Source: Actinomycetota bacterium
Lineage (GTDB): Bacteria; Actinomycetota; Acidimicrobiia; Acidimicrobiales; Ilumatobacteraceae
Length of the DNA stretch: 64,000 nucleotides
Reading direction: 5' to 3'
NCBI GenBank assembly: GCA_016871355.1
Contig: VFZC01000009.1
Coordinates: 1-64,000, forward strand
A program made the position numbers and the translations under genes. Of this stretch, positions 52,827 through 59,230 are shown piece by piece. Below the pieces are notes generated by a model. It was not told the origin of the DNA and searched no databases. It worked only from the letters and a program-made list of their open reading frames with translations. Position 1 is the first letter of the stretch. Each line of letters opens with the position of its first letter.

Positions 52827-54884
52827 TCAGGTGATGGCGGCCAGGGCGTCGTCGATGATCGGGCGCAGGAGGCGACTTCCGGCCGGGGTGAGGTGGTGAT
52901 CGTCGCGGTAGACGATCGTCGTGTGATGAGTGGGTGAGCAATGGTGCTCGTCGCAGAGAATCGTGAACGGATCGACGATCGAGACGTTGGGGTGTTCGTC
53001 AGCGACGGCTTCTTCGGCCTGTCGGGCCGCTCGGCCGTAGCTTTCGGCCGCTGTTCGTTCGACGGAACAGTAGGTCGGACTGCGGCGGGTCAGGCAATCG
53101 CTCGGCCAGCGTTCGAGTTCGGGGACGTCGTGAACGATGACCAACGGAATGTCGTGATCGGCCAGGGTCGCAGCAAGAAGGGCGAGGCCGCTGCGCCAGA
53201 TCGCCGAGGCTTCGTCGTTGGTCGCCATGCGGTCGTCTGTCCGCAGGCCGGCCGAGCACATGGTGTCGGAGGCGAGTCTGTGACCGGGGAAGTAGTACCC
53301 ACTGCGCGCCGTGACCACCACCGCCTTCACCTGGTTGGCGTTGTTCACGATGTCGTTCAGCACGTCGCGTATCCACCAGGTGCAGTCGTCGTACGTTGCG
53401 TCGCACACGAGAACCCTTGCCTCCGGCACGACCGGGCATCGTGGCTGACTAGCGAGGACGAGGCCCCAGCCGTGGCGGGTGGCGGCGTCGACGAACACTG
53501 GAGCGATCGACGCGGCGTGCGAGTCACCCACCAGTACGAGTGATGAGTCGCCGTCGACGAGTCGACAGGTGGGGTCGAACGGCATCGGTAGCACGTGGTC
53601 GGTGCACGGAAGATCGGGAACGATACGGCTCAGTTCGAGTTGGCCGAGATGATTCGACCAGTCGATTTCGACTGGTGTGGTGGCGGGTGTCTGATCGATG
53701 TCGGTAGCTGCTGGCGTGGTTGTTTCGACGACAACAGAAGTGACTGGATCGCTCGGTTGTGCCCGTAGTTGGCGTGGCATCGTCGCCGTCGAGGCAATGA
53801 CCACCACGATGATCGTGGCAACACCGGCGGCGAGCACCAGCTTCTTATCGTGGGTCGAACGATGACGCGGTGTGCGGAACCGGCTCTCGATCAACCACCA
53901 CGATGCGATGGCGAGGGGGAGGGTGGCCACGGCAACGAACACATCGCGAGTGACCGATTCGGTTTGTGTGGCGATGCGAACCAACACGAGGGCCGGCCAG
54001 TGCAGGAGATACCACGAGTACGAGACGAGTCCGATGCCGCGGAGTGGTCGGATGGCCAGCACTTGATTGACGCGTGATTCCGGGCCAGCGCTGATCACGA
54101 GAGCGGCGCCGACGGTGGGAAGGAGTGCGGCCGCCCCGGGGAATCGTGTGGCAGAGTCGTACGACACCGCGGCGATCACGATGAGTGCGATTCCGAGCGA
54201 TGCGACCGCGGTACGGCCACGACGGATCACCATCGTCGACGCACCGATCGCGAGCATCACACCGATGAGCAGTTCCCAGACGCGGAACCACGGCAGGTAG
54301 AACGCTGCCGATGGTGACGACGAGACGCTCCACACCGACGCAAGGAATGAACCGAGCAGGACGAGTGGCGTGATTGTGACGGCCCAGCGTCGACCCCGAG
54401 CCATCAACAACGACAGAACGATCGGCCACACGAAGTAGAACTGCTCTTCGACTCCGAGTGACCAGGTGTGAAGCAGGGGTTGCATCTCGATGTCGGACGA
54501 GAAGTAATCGCCACTCGGGCCGTGGAAGTGGAAGTTGGCGATGGAGAGAACCGCGTTGCGGGCGCTGTTGAGCAGGTCGCGTTGTTCCCACGGCAGCAGA
54601 ACGAAAGCTCCGGCGACGGCGACCACGGCGAGCATCGTGACGAGGGCCGGGACGATGCGCCGAATGCGGCGCGACCAGAAGGCCAAGAGATCGATCGAGT
54701 TCGACTGGTGGTGCTCGTCGAGCATCAATCGTGTGATGAGGTACCCCGAGATGACGAAGAAGACGTCGACTCCGACGTAGCCACCGGACACTCCCCGAAT
54801 GCCGGCGTGGAAAGCCACGACCAGCAGAACGGCCAATGCACGTAGACCATCGATGTCGGACCGATAGGCCCGCGTTCTTTCCAC
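52827..54884 (-). CDS. Acyltransferase-3 / SGNH fusion (OafA type)
   Basis: 685 residues. The N-terminal acyltransferase_3 domain has about ten membrane segments (YRSDIDGLRALAVLLVVAFH, VFFVISGYLI, and HTWSLGVEEQFYFVWPIVL). The C-terminal SGNH hydrolase-like domain has GDSHAASI with the Ser and DDHHLTPAGSRLL with the His. Such fusions O-acetylate surface polysaccharide or peptidoglycan. GTG start at 54884. It borders the decayed island. Confidence 0.95.
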   Translation of the reverse strand: MERTRAYRSDIDGLRALAVLLVVAFHAGIRGVSGGYVGVDVFFVISGYLITRLMLDEHHQSNSIDLLAFWSRRIRRIVPALVTMLAVVAVAGAFVLLPWEQRDLLNSARNAVLSIANFHFHGPSGDYFSSDIEMQPLLHTWSLGVEEQFYFVWPIVLSLLMARGRRWAVTITPLVLLGSFLASVWSVSSSPSAAFYLPWFRVWELLIGVMLAIGASTMVIRRGRTAVASLGIALIVIAAVSYDSATRFPGAAALLPTVGAALVISAGPESRVNQVLAIRPLRGIGLVSYSWYLLHWPALVLVRIATQTESVTRDVFVAVATLPLAIASWWLIESRFRTPRHRSTHDKKLVLAAGVATIIVVVIASTATMPRQLRAQPSDPVTSVVVETTTPAATDIDQTPATTPVEIDWSNHLGQLELSRIVPDLPCTDHVLPMPFDPTCRLVDGDSSLVLVGDSHAASIAPVFVDAATRHGWGLVLASQPRCPVVPEARVLVCDATYDDCTWWIRDVLNDIVNNANQVKAVVVTARSGYYFPGHRLASDTMCSAGLRTDDRMATNDEASAIWRSGLALLAATLADHDIPLVIVHDVPELERWPSDCLTRRSPTYCSVERTAAESYGRAARQAEEAVADEHPNVSIVDPFTILCDEHHCSPTHHTTIVYRDDHHLTPAGSRLLRPIIDDALAAIT

Positions 54885-54910: not shown

Positions 54911-54992
54911 TCACCTGGTGATGAGACAACCCCATCCGTTACCCCGGTCTTTTGGTGAAAGAAATTCACCGAGGGGGTGAAAAATTCTCACC
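54911..54992. promoter_or_regulatory. Three GGTGA/TCACC dyads upstream of the acyltransferase promoter
   Basis: TCACC-T-GGTGA (54911-54921), GGTGAA-5 nt-TTCACC (54954-54970) and GGTGA-7 nt-TCACC (54976-54992). The first lies where a -35 region would be. They may be operators; the regulator is unknown. Confidence 0.4.
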
Positions 54993-55007
54993 AGAACAAC
55001 AGTGCGC

Positions 55008-55049
55008 TGGAGCCCGAGAGGGGAATCGAACCCCTGATCTACGTATACG
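55008..55049 (-). repeat. tRNA-Thr 3'-half copy A (att remnant)
   Basis: Matches the 3' half of the tRNA-Thr at 57535-57610, from the TCCA end through the T arm toward the anticodon loop. The T stem differs but stays paired (AGGGG/CCCCT). Homology stops next to an integrase remnant. Confidence 0.7.
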
Positions 55050-55050
55050 A

Positions 55051-55372
55051 AGGACCTCTTCACTATGGAAACTTCCGGAATCGGGAGTTTGCTCCCGCCT
55101 GCAAGCGGCTCGGTCTCCGAAAGTTCAGCTTTCACGATCTTCGCAAGTTCAACGCAACCGTCATGGTCTCATCAGGAGTTGATATCAAGACAGCCCAAGT
55201 TCGCCTTAGTCACTCTGACCCTCGACTTACCCTTGCTGTCTACGCACTTCTCACTGATGAGGCAGAACGGAAGGCGGTGTCAGCGATTGATGCCGTGTCG
55301 CTGTTTGTTTCGGGCTCTAGCAGCCAGTTAGAGCCGTGCCGAGGTTTGTGGGAAGACCGAGTCGCAACCTGA
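55051..55372 (+). pseudogene. Tyrosine recombinase C-terminal fragment 1
   Basis: Encodes NFRNREFAPACKRLGL, FHDLRKFNATVMVSSGVDIK, VRLSHSDPRLTLAVYALL: the box II H-x-x-R, a second His (LSH where LGH is usual) and the nucleophilic Tyr region. The catalytic N-terminal two-thirds are absent; the frame is joined to antisense tRNA sequence on its left. It is therefore a dead remnant. Confidence 0.75.
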
Positions 55373-55836
55373 CCTCCGCGGCAACCGCCTTCACTGAGCC
55401 GCCCGGTTCCCCGAACTTAGGTTTTCGTTCGGTGTGCCAATTGAGGAGAGCGTCAAAGTCAATTGACGAGGCGTAAACGCGAGCCTCTGAAGCACCGCGA
55501 GCGGTGAGCGTAGTGAGCGAGTTGACACTTGGTTGTGCCTGACTGGGCCACGGAAGTATCACCAAGAATTGTGCAAAGACAAGCAGGGAGTCACGGAAGG
55601 CGACAATCTTCGGCCTCACGTTGGCTGACCACCATAGAAAAGCAGCCGGACTATCGAGTGATCCGTCGGGCGTTGGCTGGAGATGTTGGCGGGAGACTAT
55701 GCAACTGGCGTCTCCGCGAACGCAGCGCTCTGTTGTGCGGAAAAACGCACACGGAATGCCGCCAGAAACACAACAATTGTGCAAGACTTTCCCGGGGACA
55801 ACGGTTCCCACGCACTTTGGCCAAATCGGAGGAATT
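55373..55836. other. Island sequence with no recognised gene
   Basis: Short frames exist on both strands (for example 55317-55853 minus) but none has a recognisable motif or a good start. GC content is lower than in the flanks. Confidence 0.5.
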
Positions 55837-56061
55837 ATGCTCAGGAAACTCAAATCACTTGGCTACAGCGCCAATCTCTCGTACGCACTCGGATTTCTGT
55901 CCGTCATTGCGAGCATTGTCATTTGGTTCACGCAGGGTGGAACGGGTTCTGCCGAGGAGCAGGCCGCGGCAGAGCGATTCGGAATTTTCGTCGGCCTCTG
56001 GGCACCGACGTTCATGGCAATCGGCAACGGCATCGACAATTTGCCCGACGAGAAGAAGTAA
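55837..56061 (+). CDS. Small two-TM membrane protein (74 aa) in the island
   Basis: 74 residues from ATG 55837 with GGAGG 4 nt upstream. Hydrophobic segments are SYALGFLSVIASIVIWFT and GIFVGLWAPTFMAIGNGI, separated by an acidic EEQAAAERF loop. The pattern recalls small hypothetical membrane proteins carried by many actinobacteria. It is the best-preserved gene of the island. Confidence 0.65.
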   Translation: MLRKLKSLGYSANLSYALGFLSVIASIVIWFTQGGTGSAEEQAAAERFGIFVGLWAPTFMAIGNGIDNLPDEKK

Positions 56062-56072
56062 CAGCCCCTCAA

Positions 56073-56159
56073 TCAAAGCCGAGCTGCGCTGGCTATGAAG
56101 ACCGCCAGCGTCACGGCGATAACGACGACGGGTGCGACGATCTTCTTGGCTTGTTCCAC
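56073..56159 (-). CDS. Candidate 28-residue single-TM microprotein
   Basis: GTG 56159 opens EQAKKIVAPVVVIAVTLAVF and ends IASAARL, one hydrophobic helix. TAAGTT at 56166-56171 lies 6 nt upstream, the same leaderless arrangement as many genes here. It is convergent with the 74-residue membrane gene, 11 bp away. Short, so only suggestive. Confidence 0.35.
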   Translation of the reverse strand: MEQAKKIVAPVVVIAVTLAVFIASAARL

Positions 56160-56358
56160 CACTCAAACTTAGCCCGTTTGCGTGCACCAACTGCCCCTTC
56201 CGCGATGACCCCACGAGAGCACTGGGCCGGTGCACTCCTCCGCTGGGGCATTCCCGACCGCACACTGCGCGCGGGATCTAGTGCACGGGCTGCGACCACA
56301 ACGACACCGGTGTTTGTCTCAACCGTGCGATTCGAGACACCGGCTCCGACACCCTCAG

Positions 56359-56664
56359 CCCTTGGTTGGCCCTGAGGACTGGGTCTTCACATCGGCCAAG
56401 GGAGGACCTATTCGCTGTGGAAACTTCCGGAATCGGGAGTTTGCTCCCGCCTGCAAGCGGCTCGGTCTCGAAGGGTTCACCTTTCACGACCTTCGCAAGT
56501 TCAACGCAACCGTCGTGGTCTCATCAGGAGTTGACATAAAGACAGCCCAGGTTCGTCTCGGACACGCTGACCCGCGACTCACCCCTGGGGTTTACGCACT
56601 TGCCTCTGGAGAAGCCGATCAACGAGCCAGCGACTCAATCGGCCGGGCCTTCAACGGCAACTAG
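56359..56664 (+). pseudogene. Tyrosine recombinase C-terminal fragment 2
   Basis: Encodes GPEDWVFTSAKGGPIRCGNF, GFTFHDLRKFNATVVVSSGV and VRLGHADPRLTPGVYALASG, with the H-x-x-R, LGH and Tyr positions of the C-terminal catalytic half, then a natural stop. The N-terminal half is missing. It is close in sequence to fragment 1; the first 50 bp or so from 56419 and 55067 are identical. Confidence 0.8.
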
Positions 56665-56751
56665 TTCAGCCCGCTGCGGGAAATATGCGGGATAACTCGC
56701 GTTTCACTCAGGCGGACACCTGTTCACCATCACGTCTACCAGGACTTCTTC

Positions 56752-56797
56752 TGGAGCCCGAGGCGGGAATTGGACCCGCGACCTGCGCATTACGAGT
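56752..56797 (-). repeat. tRNA-Thr 3'-half copy B (att remnant)
   Basis: 46 bp matching tRNA-Thr 57535-57580 with three mismatches. It ends abruptly in the anticodon loop, the usual crossover point for tRNA-targeted integrases. Confidence 0.85.
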
Positions 56798-57254
56798 TTT
56801 TTGTTCCGTCTGGTATCGACGGTGAGGACGTGCGGGGCCATGTCCAAGCCGAGCGCAGGATGAAGGCCAGGAGCAGCACCTCGGTTCCGATGGAAAGGCC
56901 GTAGAAGGGGGCTCAGTTGCTGGACTCCCCGACCGCGTTGAACACCGTGACGGGAATGTACAGAGATGCGACGGAGATGTTGATGGCACGGTTCACCCGA
57001 GCAGGAAGCACCATTGATAGCACAACCATCAGAGCTGGGATCCCTGTCAGAACGAGAAACCCGGTCATCAATATCGGTGTGATGTCGAACTCGAAAACGA
57101 TACCGGCCCGTAAATCGTCGATGACGCCAGGCTTGAAGAGATTGTAATAGTCGACGTAGATATAGAAAAACATGAAGCCGGTCCACGCGGCAGCAAGCTT
57201 GGCCTGCAGGGGGATTGGCGGGTTGTCGAAGGTTTCGAGATTTCGGTTGGTCAC
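56790..57254 (-). pseudogene. DUF6326 membrane protein broken by an in-frame TGA
   Basis: From GTG 57254 the frame encodes PPIPLQAKLAAAWTGFMFFY, YVDYYNLFKPGVIDDLRAG and ASLYIPVTVFNAVGESSN, then TGA at 56913-56915. The same frame goes on with APFYGLSIGTEVLLLAF and ILRSAWTWPRT, which is the expected last membrane segment and C-terminus of the family, to TAA at 56790. A single TGG to TGA change (Trp in the family pattern) explains the break. The frame ends inside tRNA copy B. Confidence 0.7.
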
Positions 57255-57353
57255 TGGTTCTTCTTTCTGGATAAGCCAATTTTTGGCACTTTTTGATGCC
57301 GAACCTCTCAAAGGCCAGAGCACTTTCGTCAGCCTCAACCGAGACGATGCGAA

Positions 57354-57464
57354 CCTCTTCTTCGAACCCGTGACTCGCACGCCGCCGCACAGATCGGTGG
57401 TCAGATTGAAAATGCTCGCAAGCAACACCCACAAACCCGTGCCCAATATGACGTCGAACAACAT
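57354..57464 (-). pseudogene. DUF3566 C-terminal fragment
   Basis: MLFDVILGTGLWVLLASIFN and LTTDLCGGVRVTG match the last membrane segment and the NLISDLVGGVRV block of the DUF3566 protein at 1.2-1.7 kb. The rest of the gene is missing. It is read in the same frame as the following DUF6326 remnant. Confidence 0.6.
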
Positions 57465-57534
57465 CTGATGTTCCCAAAATGTTCCCGAAACGCTTCACGA
57501 AGGTGCTCGAACCGGTCGGAAACGTTGAGTTTGC

Positions 57535-57610
57535 TGGAGCCCGAGGCGGGAATCGAACCCGCGACCTACGCATTACGAGTGCGTTGCTCTACCGACTGAG
57601 CTACCCGGGC
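57535..57610 (-). tRNA. tRNA-Thr (anticodon CGT)
   Basis: Cloverleaf: acceptor GCCCGGG with CTCGGGC, D arm AGCTCAGTCGGTAGAGC, anticodon loop CTCGTAA, T loop TTCGATT, and a genomically encoded CCA (57535-57537 on the minus strand). It is intact and likely functional, unlike the two partial copies to its left. Confidence 0.95.
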
Positions 57611-57635
57611 AACGGCTCGAAATGCTATCGGGAGG

Positions 57636-58148
57636 TCATTCGTACGACCACTTGGTGCCGGGCAGGTAGTACCGCTTGGCCCAGATTCCGCGTGGATCTT
57701 CGCCCTTCACGGGCATACGCCAGGTTGCGATGCGAGTGGTTGCAGCCGTGAGGTCGATCGCACAGAGCGCGCGCGGTTGGTCGTCGGTTCCGTCCACGTA
57801 GTTATCGGCGGCGTCATCGGCCACGTAGCGCTTGGCGATGCGTCGATAGATGTCGCGCCAGGCAGCATCGTCACCGGGACGATGTTTGATCGTCACCGAA
57901 CCTTGGATCGTCACCTTGCGCCACGGTGCTTCGTCTTCGTCGATCGACACTCCGGCGCGAGGATCACGGTCGATGTTCTTCCAGATGATCGCGGGTGATC
58001 GCGGCGTGAAGAGAAACTCATGGTCGATCATGATGAACCACAGCGGCAACACACGCGGCAGCCCGTCGGCATCGGTGGTGCCGATGCGCGCCAGGTGACT
58101 GGGCTCATCGAGGAACGAGCGAACTTCATCATCGGTGAGTTTGGGCAT
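57636..58148 (-). CDS. Pyridoxamine 5'-phosphate oxidase-fold (PPOX) protein
   Basis: 170 residues. HLARIGTTDADGLPRVLPLW and FTPRSPAIIWKNIDRDPRAG mark the split-barrel flavin/F420 fold of short PPOX proteins, a family abundant in actinobacteria that uses F420 or FMN. The cofactor is not deducible. The ATG is adjacent to the holB stop (ATGA-type overlap), so it is co-transcribed with holB-tmk-topA. Confidence 0.85.
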   Translation of the reverse strand: MPKLTDDEVRSFLDEPSHLARIGTTDADGLPRVLPLWFIMIDHEFLFTPRSPAIIWKNIDRDPRAGVSIDEDEAPWRKVTIQGSVTIKHRPGDDAAWRDIYRRIAKRYVADDAADNYVDGTDDQPRALCAIDLTAATTRIATWRMPVKGEDPRGIWAKRYYLPGTKWSYE

Positions 58149-59230
58149 CACGACCTCCGGACGGACGGCAACGACATGAGCAAATCTTCCAGCAACAGCC
58201 GTTCGTTCACGTTTCGCGACAACGCATGGCTGGCGCGGCGGATAGCCGACACCGCATCGGCGTAACCGATCACCTCGTGCGGGGCGGCCGCGTCGGACAG
58301 CCCCGACATCGCGTCGCGGTACACCATCGACAGCGCACGCAAACCTGAGCGCAGTTCGTCGGTGCGAAAGCGGCGCAGTTCGCGCTTGTGCCGGTCGGTG
58401 GTCGCACGACGACCACTGCCTCGTTCGCCCAGCAACTTGGCTCGCTCTTCGAGAGTCGCAAGTTCTTGAGCCTGCTTGGCTTTGTACGGCTCGAGCGCGT
58501 CTTCGATCGCACCGTTGATGTCGCCCACCAACGCGACAGCCGTGGACAACGAACCGTCGAGCTTCTGCGGAATCGACGTGAACAATCCCATCCGATCGCT
58601 CAACTTGGGATCACCCACCAATACGCGCGCACGATCGAGATCGCCAGCGGCCACCCGCGCCACCTCACCGGCGACCCCGGCGTCGACCCCCTCGGCCACG
58701 AGAGTCTGCGTCACGAGTTCGTCGGAGATCGGCCCGAAGTTCACCCGCACGCTGCGTGACGAGATCGTGGCGAAGTTGTCGGGAACCTCATCGGCCAGCA
58801 TCACGATGATCGTGCTGCCGTCGGGCTCCTCGATCGTCTTGAGCAATGCGGATCGAGCCACGTCGGCCAAGAGGTGGAACTCGTGGACGATGATCACGCG
58901 AGTGGAGCCCTCCACCGCAGTGCGGTCGGCCAACTTGACGATCTCCTCACGAGCCTGCTCGACGTCGATGGATGCACCTTCGCGTTCGAGTTCGTGCACG
59001 TCGACGTGGATGCCGCGCATCACCAGATCGGCCGTGCGAGCACTCGCGTCCTCGTCACCCTGAAGCCGCACCGCCGCGAACGCCCGTGCCGCCGTCTCCT
59101 TGCCACAGCCACTCGGCCCGACGAACAAATAGGCGTGAGCTGGTGATGTGGCGAGTGCTCGCAACTTCGCGACGGCACCGTCCTGTCCGGTCACTGCATC
59201 GAACACCGAAGCTGTCGCTGTGCGGGCCAT
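58148..59230 (-). CDS. holB: DNA polymerase III subunit delta prime
   Basis: 360 residues. AAA+ clamp-loader subunit: GQDGAVAKLRALATSPAHAY leads to Walker A FVGPSGCGKETAARAFA; sensor segments VIIVHEFHLLADVARSALL and KTIEEPDGSTIIVMLADE follow. It has no zinc module. The order topA-tmk-holB is conserved in actinobacteria. Confidence 0.93.
   Translation of the reverse strand: MARTATASVFDAVTGQDGAVAKLRALATSPAHAYLFVGPSGCGKETAARAFAAVRLQGDEDASARTADLVMRGIHVDVHELEREGASIDVEQAREEIVKLADRTAVEGSTRVIIVHEFHLLADVARSALLKTIEEPDGSTIIVMLADEVPDNFATISSRSVRVNFGPISDELVTQTLVAEGVDAGVAGEVARVAAGDLDRARVLVGDPKLSDRMGLFTSIPQKLDGSLSTAVALVGDINGAIEDALEPYKAKQAQELATLEERAKLLGERGSGRRATTDRHKRELRRFRTDELRSGLRALSMVYRDAMSGLSDAAAPHEVIGYADAVSAIRRASHALSRNVNERLLLEDLLMSLPSVRRS

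Follow-up and report, generated by a model that had tools for sequence, protein, structure and literature searches.

A decayed tandem array at the 3' half of a tRNA-Thr(CGT) gene in the Ilumatobacteraceae, with a 3' half of native type at its outer end

Features of the locus

The locus lies in contig 9 of a draft genome of the Ilumatobacteraceae (2,203,344 bases in 59 contigs, completeness 86), from which a stretch of 64,000 nucleotides, here called the window, was analysed. The window contains an intact tRNA-Thr(CGT) gene (ARAGORN; RF00005, 73.9 bits) and, on the 3' side of this gene and in the same orientation, two displaced partial copies of its 3' half, designated copy A and copy B. The features of the locus are as follows.

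52827..54884, minus strand: host acyltransferase/SGNH gene at the outer end, with an 82 % identical orthologue on the contig of relative G010 that holds a partial copy
54941..55001, minus strand: host flank of copy B, which contains a pair of GGTGA-N7-TCACC palindromes
55008..55051, minus strand: copy B, the outermost displaced 3' half, T stem AGGGG/CCCCT, at the host-side end of the stack
55051..55312, plus strand: integrase C-terminal remnant B, beginning directly at copy B
55837..56061, plus strand: frame for a small protein of 74 aa, cargo of the older element
56371..56664, plus strand: integrase C-terminal remnant A, 87 nt from copy A in a tail-to-tail arrangement
56676..56692, minus strand: 17-nt motif TCCCGCNNNTTTCCCGC, 59 nt beyond copy A
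56752..56797, minus strand: copy A, a displaced 3' half found by repeat finder, blastn and template scan
56798..57534, no strand assigned: younger element remnant, 0.74 kb, holding a DUF6326 frame
56913-57464, minus strand: DUF6326 frame (PF19851, profile 14-91 of 135), which stops before the end of the domain profile
57535..57610, minus strand: intact tRNA-Thr(CGT)
57535-57579, minus strand: 3' half of the intact gene, T stem GCGGG/CCCGC; the 5' half is of the genus type
57636..58151, minus strand: host PNPOx-like gene at the tRNA 5' end, whose orthologue in G010, 88 % identical, also lies next to the tRNA

The repeat finder placed 55007, 56751 and 57534 in one family, with spacings of 1744 and 783, and blastn aligned copy A to the intact gene at 43 of 46 positions (93.5 % over tRNA positions 31-76), in agreement with a sequence-only reading of this DNA that had described two direct partial copies 3' of an intact tRNA-Thr. 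Over the 45-nt 3' half, 42/45 columns of copy A and 37/45 of copy B match the intact gene, and the best match to this half elsewhere in the window is 26/45. A template scan with 33 fixed positions and a threshold of 25 recovered copy A at 30/33 and copy B at 27/33, and gave no match in 718,757 bases of shuffled sequence. Both fragments start at the anticodon loop (copy A at tRNA position 31, copy B near 32-33), and Thr(CGT) is closest to each of them when the 45 distinct tRNA sequences taken from the same genome are compared. Other tRNAs were rejected as a source of copy B, for which Thr(CGT) scored 29 and the next candidate, Ala(GGC), 20. The sequence-only reading had ended copy B at 55049; the similarity runs to about 55051, and remnant B starts there. 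Long open frames at 56704-57573 and 57479-57751 run across the tRNA gene and copy A and are likely false genes.

The flank of copy A resembles the sequence at the left ends of the elements in relatives G010 and G006 (z 8.3 and 6.0); copy A still has the flank of a former left end. The motif TCCCGCNNNTTTCCCGC within it also occurs 59 nt (G010) and 57 nt (G006) beyond the intact tRNA. It was found in 12 of 273 loci, all of them repeats of these three places (window, G010 and G006), and not at all in 100 shuffles of the window. The motif is a candidate integrase arm site at the left end of the older element.

The flank of copy B is, by sequence match, host DNA. Its closest match is the sequence before the acyltransferase gene of G010 (88 % over 60), and the sequence beyond the G010 partial copy matches it at 43/55, with the flank motif repeated in G010, so that the flank match does not fix the exact base of the ancient junction. 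The two palindromes of the flank, at 54954-54992 and 22 bases apart, compare with 0.14 expected in the window, and the acyltransferase gene lies 123 bases beyond copy B. Six further GGTGA-N7-TCACC sites are present on the G010 partial-copy contig (L109, at 2273, 3755, 3777, 5233, 6888 and 6910), and none was found in the other 15 records scanned. The sites precede the acyltransferase gene, in G010 they surround a row of YVTN-repeat-like genes, and they are possibly operators. Genes on both sides of the array are 82-91 % identical to their G010 orthologues, which speaks against a chimeric contig.

Integrase remnants and element contents

The sequence-only reading had noted integrase C-terminal remnants beside the partial copies, and both carry PF00589 matches to the C-terminal part only (profile 92-166 and 111-169 of 172). 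No integrase was found in the younger interval and an intact tyrosine integrase is absent from both intervals; the window therefore holds remnants of elements, not islands. The two remnants are 86 % identical over 216 nt, and differ at 31 of 213 nt with dN 0.12 and dS 0.28, which suggests that their divergence took place largely under selection, before decay. This difference hints at two different elements, and so perhaps at a third insertion.

Close viral relatives of remnant A were few (4 only, at 43-45 % identity). In 5 of 17 loci with integrase relatives a tRNA lies tail-to-tail with the match at a distance of 45-180 nt, which is the layout of remnant A and copy A. Viral contigs carrying the 45-nt tRNA half pattern numbered 0, and the search found no element carrying a GCGGG half. 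Genus g10 was rejected as the integrase source, distant integrases being present in only 4 of its 13 genomes, with a best identity of 28 %. A split integrase of the SSV type, in which attP lies inside the gene and integration puts one part at either end, was rejected as well, since each remnant is from the C-terminal part and the integrase of G010 forms a continuous frame of 385 aa. Two more integrases, whose open frames measure 454 and 367 aa, are present elsewhere in the window's own genome (G000, contigs 7 and 19; L031 and L032).

The 74-aa frame of the older interval belongs to a phage family of unknown function (phrog_23295, 1.7e-12). Relatives of the protein were found in 43 viral contigs, and a tblastn search of 50,697 phage records gave no match. 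The older element was thus likely a prophage or phage-derived. Three viral neighbourhoods of the relatives hold methyltransferase, HNH and tail-type genes and suggest no function.

The attachment site and its T stem in relatives

Site-specific insertion at tRNA-Thr is confirmed, at the level of sequence, by occupied and empty sites in the relatives. Sequence past the partial copy of G006 is the same as that past the tRNA of G007 (z 98), and G009 and G003 give the same match across the junction (z 71). The matches begin 23-51 nt past CCA, and occupied and empty forms are 8.5 and 1.9 kb apart. The empty sites are thus those of G007 and G003, and G010, the closest fetched relative of the window, is occupied: it carries the full-length integrase 1.7 kb from the same tRNA on one contig, and a second contig has a partial copy and, after it, the orthologue of the acyltransferase gene of the window, the span between the contigs being unassembled. 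Comparison of the locus across relatives, as proposed in the sequence-only reading, yielded empty sites and a full-length integrase. That reading would have been at odds with partial copies in uninserted relatives, and none was found in the 11-13 kb of 3' sequence fetched for G019, G007, G003 and G002; the 0.8 and 1.2 kb available for G014 and G020 are too short to tell. A partial copy is present in at least 11 of 54 genomes scanned, a count that is a minimum, since contigs often stop close to the tRNA and some of the matching genomes were not fetched.

Elements at the same site in relatives carry an MmeI-like type IIG restriction-modification gene (G006; L115 5210-7984) and, in G010, excisionase-like and replication-initiator-like proteins together with a 545-aa protein with six DUF4379 treble-clef stretches, encoded between the tRNA and the integrase (L108 5317-6954). 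In G181 (L220, L221 and L222), tRNA-Thr(CGT) is present on short contigs as two complete genes that differ in T stem, together with partial copies; either the bin mixes strains or the gene is truly duplicated.

The T stem GCGGG/CCCGC is common to the intact gene and copy A, and copy B has AGGGG/CCCCT. A recognisable tRNA-Thr(CGT) was found in 10 of the 24 same-genus genomes searched, the window's included, and a looser search with a 5'-side pattern recovered the same 10. All nine other carriers have an AGGRG/CYCCT T stem (AGGGG/CCCCT in G019, G014, G010 and G002; AGGAG/CTCCT in G020, G006, G007, G009 and G003), leaving GCGGG in the window alone. Copy B is identical to the half found in G010, G019, G014 and G002 at 28/28 nt of the T arm and acceptor strand, and matches it in 41/45 columns overall, the four differences (three mismatches and one gap) all being on the anticodon side; against the intact half of its own genome it matches at only 24/28 in the T arm and acceptor. 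Copy B is therefore of native type, and it looks like the original 3' half of the host rather than a foreign one. Copy A is closer to the intact half than to the native half, which it matches at 38/45. Outside the window, the last 45 nt of the intact gene recur without a difference in just two genomes, G032 and G126, which belong to genus g10 (221 family genomes searched, 69 with a match). The 5' half of the intact gene is of its own genus type, and that of G032 differs from it. The intact gene thus seems, from these comparisons, to carry a borrowed, foreign-looking 3' half on a native 5' half.

Variety of the T stem was also examined in tRNAs used as controls, on the expectation that, were integration the sole cause of stem swaps, a tRNA that does not serve as a site would keep its stem. 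The T stem of tRNA-Thr(TGT) is of one type in 5/5 (g1), 11/11 (g2), 7/7 (g6) and 15/16 (g48) genomes; that of Thr(CGT) has three types in 10 g1 genomes, two in 7 g2 genomes and two in 21 g48 genomes. Across 18 g48 genomes, tRNA-Ile(GAT) has five T-stem types, which exceeds the number at the integration-site tRNA, and this gene is perhaps another attachment site. Turnover of the T stem was therefore rejected as proof of replacement, despite the steady Thr(TGT), since tRNA-Ile(GAT) is as variable or more so. The case rests instead on the displaced native copy, on its position, and on the 45/45 identity of the intact half elsewhere.

Stacks of differing halves are also present in another genus. 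G168 and G190 have an intact gene with GTGAG, a decayed copy with AGGGG about 0.39 kb away and a further copy with GTGAG about 2.9 kb away, as if the stem had been swapped twice. A simple rule does not hold, however. In G177 the flank that lies behind the AGGGG copy of G168 and G190 is preceded by a GTGAG gene, and in g48 intact genes of either T-stem type can be followed by similar left-end flanks (G190, G171 and G188); exchange or loss without a surviving scar therefore also occurs.

History of the array and its significance

The region 55008-57610 is probably a decayed tandem array of at least two elements that integrated at the 3' half of tRNA-Thr(CGT), in which a foreign half displaced the native half as copy B and a second element then displaced copy A. 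In each event a tyrosine integrase would cross attP with attB near the anticodon loop, joining the element's 3' half to the host 5' half as a working gene (attL), and the 3' half until then in place would come to lie at the distal end of the newcomer (attR). First, a native AGGGG/CCCCT gene would have been entered by an element whose half was GCGGG/CCCGC, which would have left the native half as copy B; a different element with the same kind of half would then have entered the restored gene, and the half of the earlier element would have become copy A. Afterwards both elements would have lost nearly everything. By the geometry of integration the outermost copy should be native, the middle copy should be the half of the earlier element and the intact gene should carry the half of the latest, and the three copies fit. 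Copy A is thus best read as the former 3' end of the intact tRNA, from the time when the older element adjoined the gene. The two successive, decayed insertions of the sequence-only reading are upheld by the array and by the occupied and empty sites in the genus, with the amendment that two is a minimum; its view of copy B as the older event fits the order of the stack, and its other suggestion, a related element from another host, gives way to the native type of the copy.

We infer that the GCGGG half came with the first element and not by mutation. It could also be that the same two insertions took place, the first by an element with a native AGGGG half, and that compensatory mutation turned the stem of the intact gene into GCGGG before copy A was displaced by the second insertion. 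Changes of T-stem pairs within a genus are indeed seen, as tRNA-Ile(GAT) illustrates, and G010 indicates that same-genus elements can carry an AGGGG half; but this history calls for four coordinated changes with no other difference that yield 45/45 identity to another genus, the change from a G-C to a C-G pair passes through a mispair, and the tRNA-Thr(TGT) T stem is steady in the genera compared, so that such an origin of the stem is unlikely. That copy B is the more diverged because a related element brought it from another host is very improbable: its T stem does differ from that of the intact gene, but it is the copy B stem that agrees with the genus and GCGGG that is not the common same-genus type, the recombination geometry makes the outermost copy the host's half, and the outer flank of copy B leads directly to a host gene. 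Nothing beyond the similarity itself favours separate tRNA genes, pseudogenes from ordinary duplication or an assembly artefact, and such origins are scarcely credible for copies that end in the anticodon loop, lie in direct order on the 3' side, have occupied and empty counterparts in relatives, and are bordered by genes syntenic with those of G010; ARAGORN moreover called no tRNA at copy A or copy B, where the sequence-only reading had allowed for separate tRNA genes.

A history of two events leaves integrase remnant B unexplained, and this remnant beside copy B may mark a third insertion. Copy B and remnant B would then be what is left of a third and oldest element that has lost its left-end copy. 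The integrase remnants are 14 % apart, and remnant A has a left-end tRNA copy whereas remnant B is without one; against this, the differences in the aligned stretch are few, and a duplication or a recombination within a single element would give the same picture. Three insertions are accordingly an appreciable but somewhat doubtful possibility, one that adds to the preferred history of successive displacement and does not oppose it.

Much of this process is already known. When an element integrates at the 3' half of a tRNA gene, its own half becomes part of the restored gene and the half of the host goes to the far end (described in passages of PMC4383910 and PMC10865867), and in the Islander set of 3919 islands the tandems with at least two members number 125 and those with at least three number 4 (PMC4383910). 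The tandem islands described there resemble the window in having a tRNA gene followed downstream by displaced 3' fragments in the same orientation, a crossover in the anticodon loop, tyrosine integrases, and one fragment per member of the array. The window departs from that set, as set out in those passages, in its intervals of 1.7 and 0.74 kb, which are below the 2 kb floor, in holding integrase fragments only, and in displaced halves that differ in type and record the history of the gene. Reconstituted archaeal tRNA genes inherit mismatches between attP and attB (cases cited in PMC3293823), so that there, too, differences borne by the element end in the restored host gene; unlike those cases as cited, the gene in the window is bacterial, two of its T-stem pairs have changed in concert, and the native half is kept as an internal reference. 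The Arthrobacter phage Hestia has its attB in tRNA-Thr-CGT, with a 52-bp core and reconstitution of the tRNA (PMC10865867, Table 2), the same target isoacceptor as in the window in a different host group. Lysogeny dependent on a tRNA, in which integration leaves the host tRNA unrestored (PMC10865867), was rejected for the window, where the gene is intact. Integration also leaves partial tRNA sequences that can be mistaken for genes, as attR (PMC9897764); copies A and B are comparable leftovers, and the events given in that source are single, with about 9-23 kb inserted in the archaeal set. A bacterial stack of differing tRNA halves was not found in the open literature, as judged by titles and passages. 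Inheritance of attP differences, tandem tRNA islands and an attB in tRNA-Thr-CGT being known already, the locus is a well-preserved further case.

The T arm is a part of the tRNA contacted by the elongation factor, and the T stem tunes elongation-factor binding. The genome also encodes Thr(TGT) and Thr(GGT) tRNAs, so a changed Thr(CGT) was probably tolerated. A displaced native half beside a foreign-looking half is a record, within one genome, of a tRNA gene before and after integration. It is unsafe to assume that the gene left intact at an attachment site has the ancestral sequence, and tRNA trees at such sites can mix histories. It may be proposed, tentatively and at somewhat less than even likelihood, that displaced halves in the family are ordered strata of former 3' halves and that integrating elements repeatedly move tRNA halves between genera; from the outside in, the order is native, foreign-looking and foreign-looking in the window, and GTGAG, AGGGG and GTGAG in G168 and G190. 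If so, tRNA-Thr(CGT) would be a mosaic with a horizontally exchanged T arm, and stacks of scars could order and date past infections once the elements themselves are gone.
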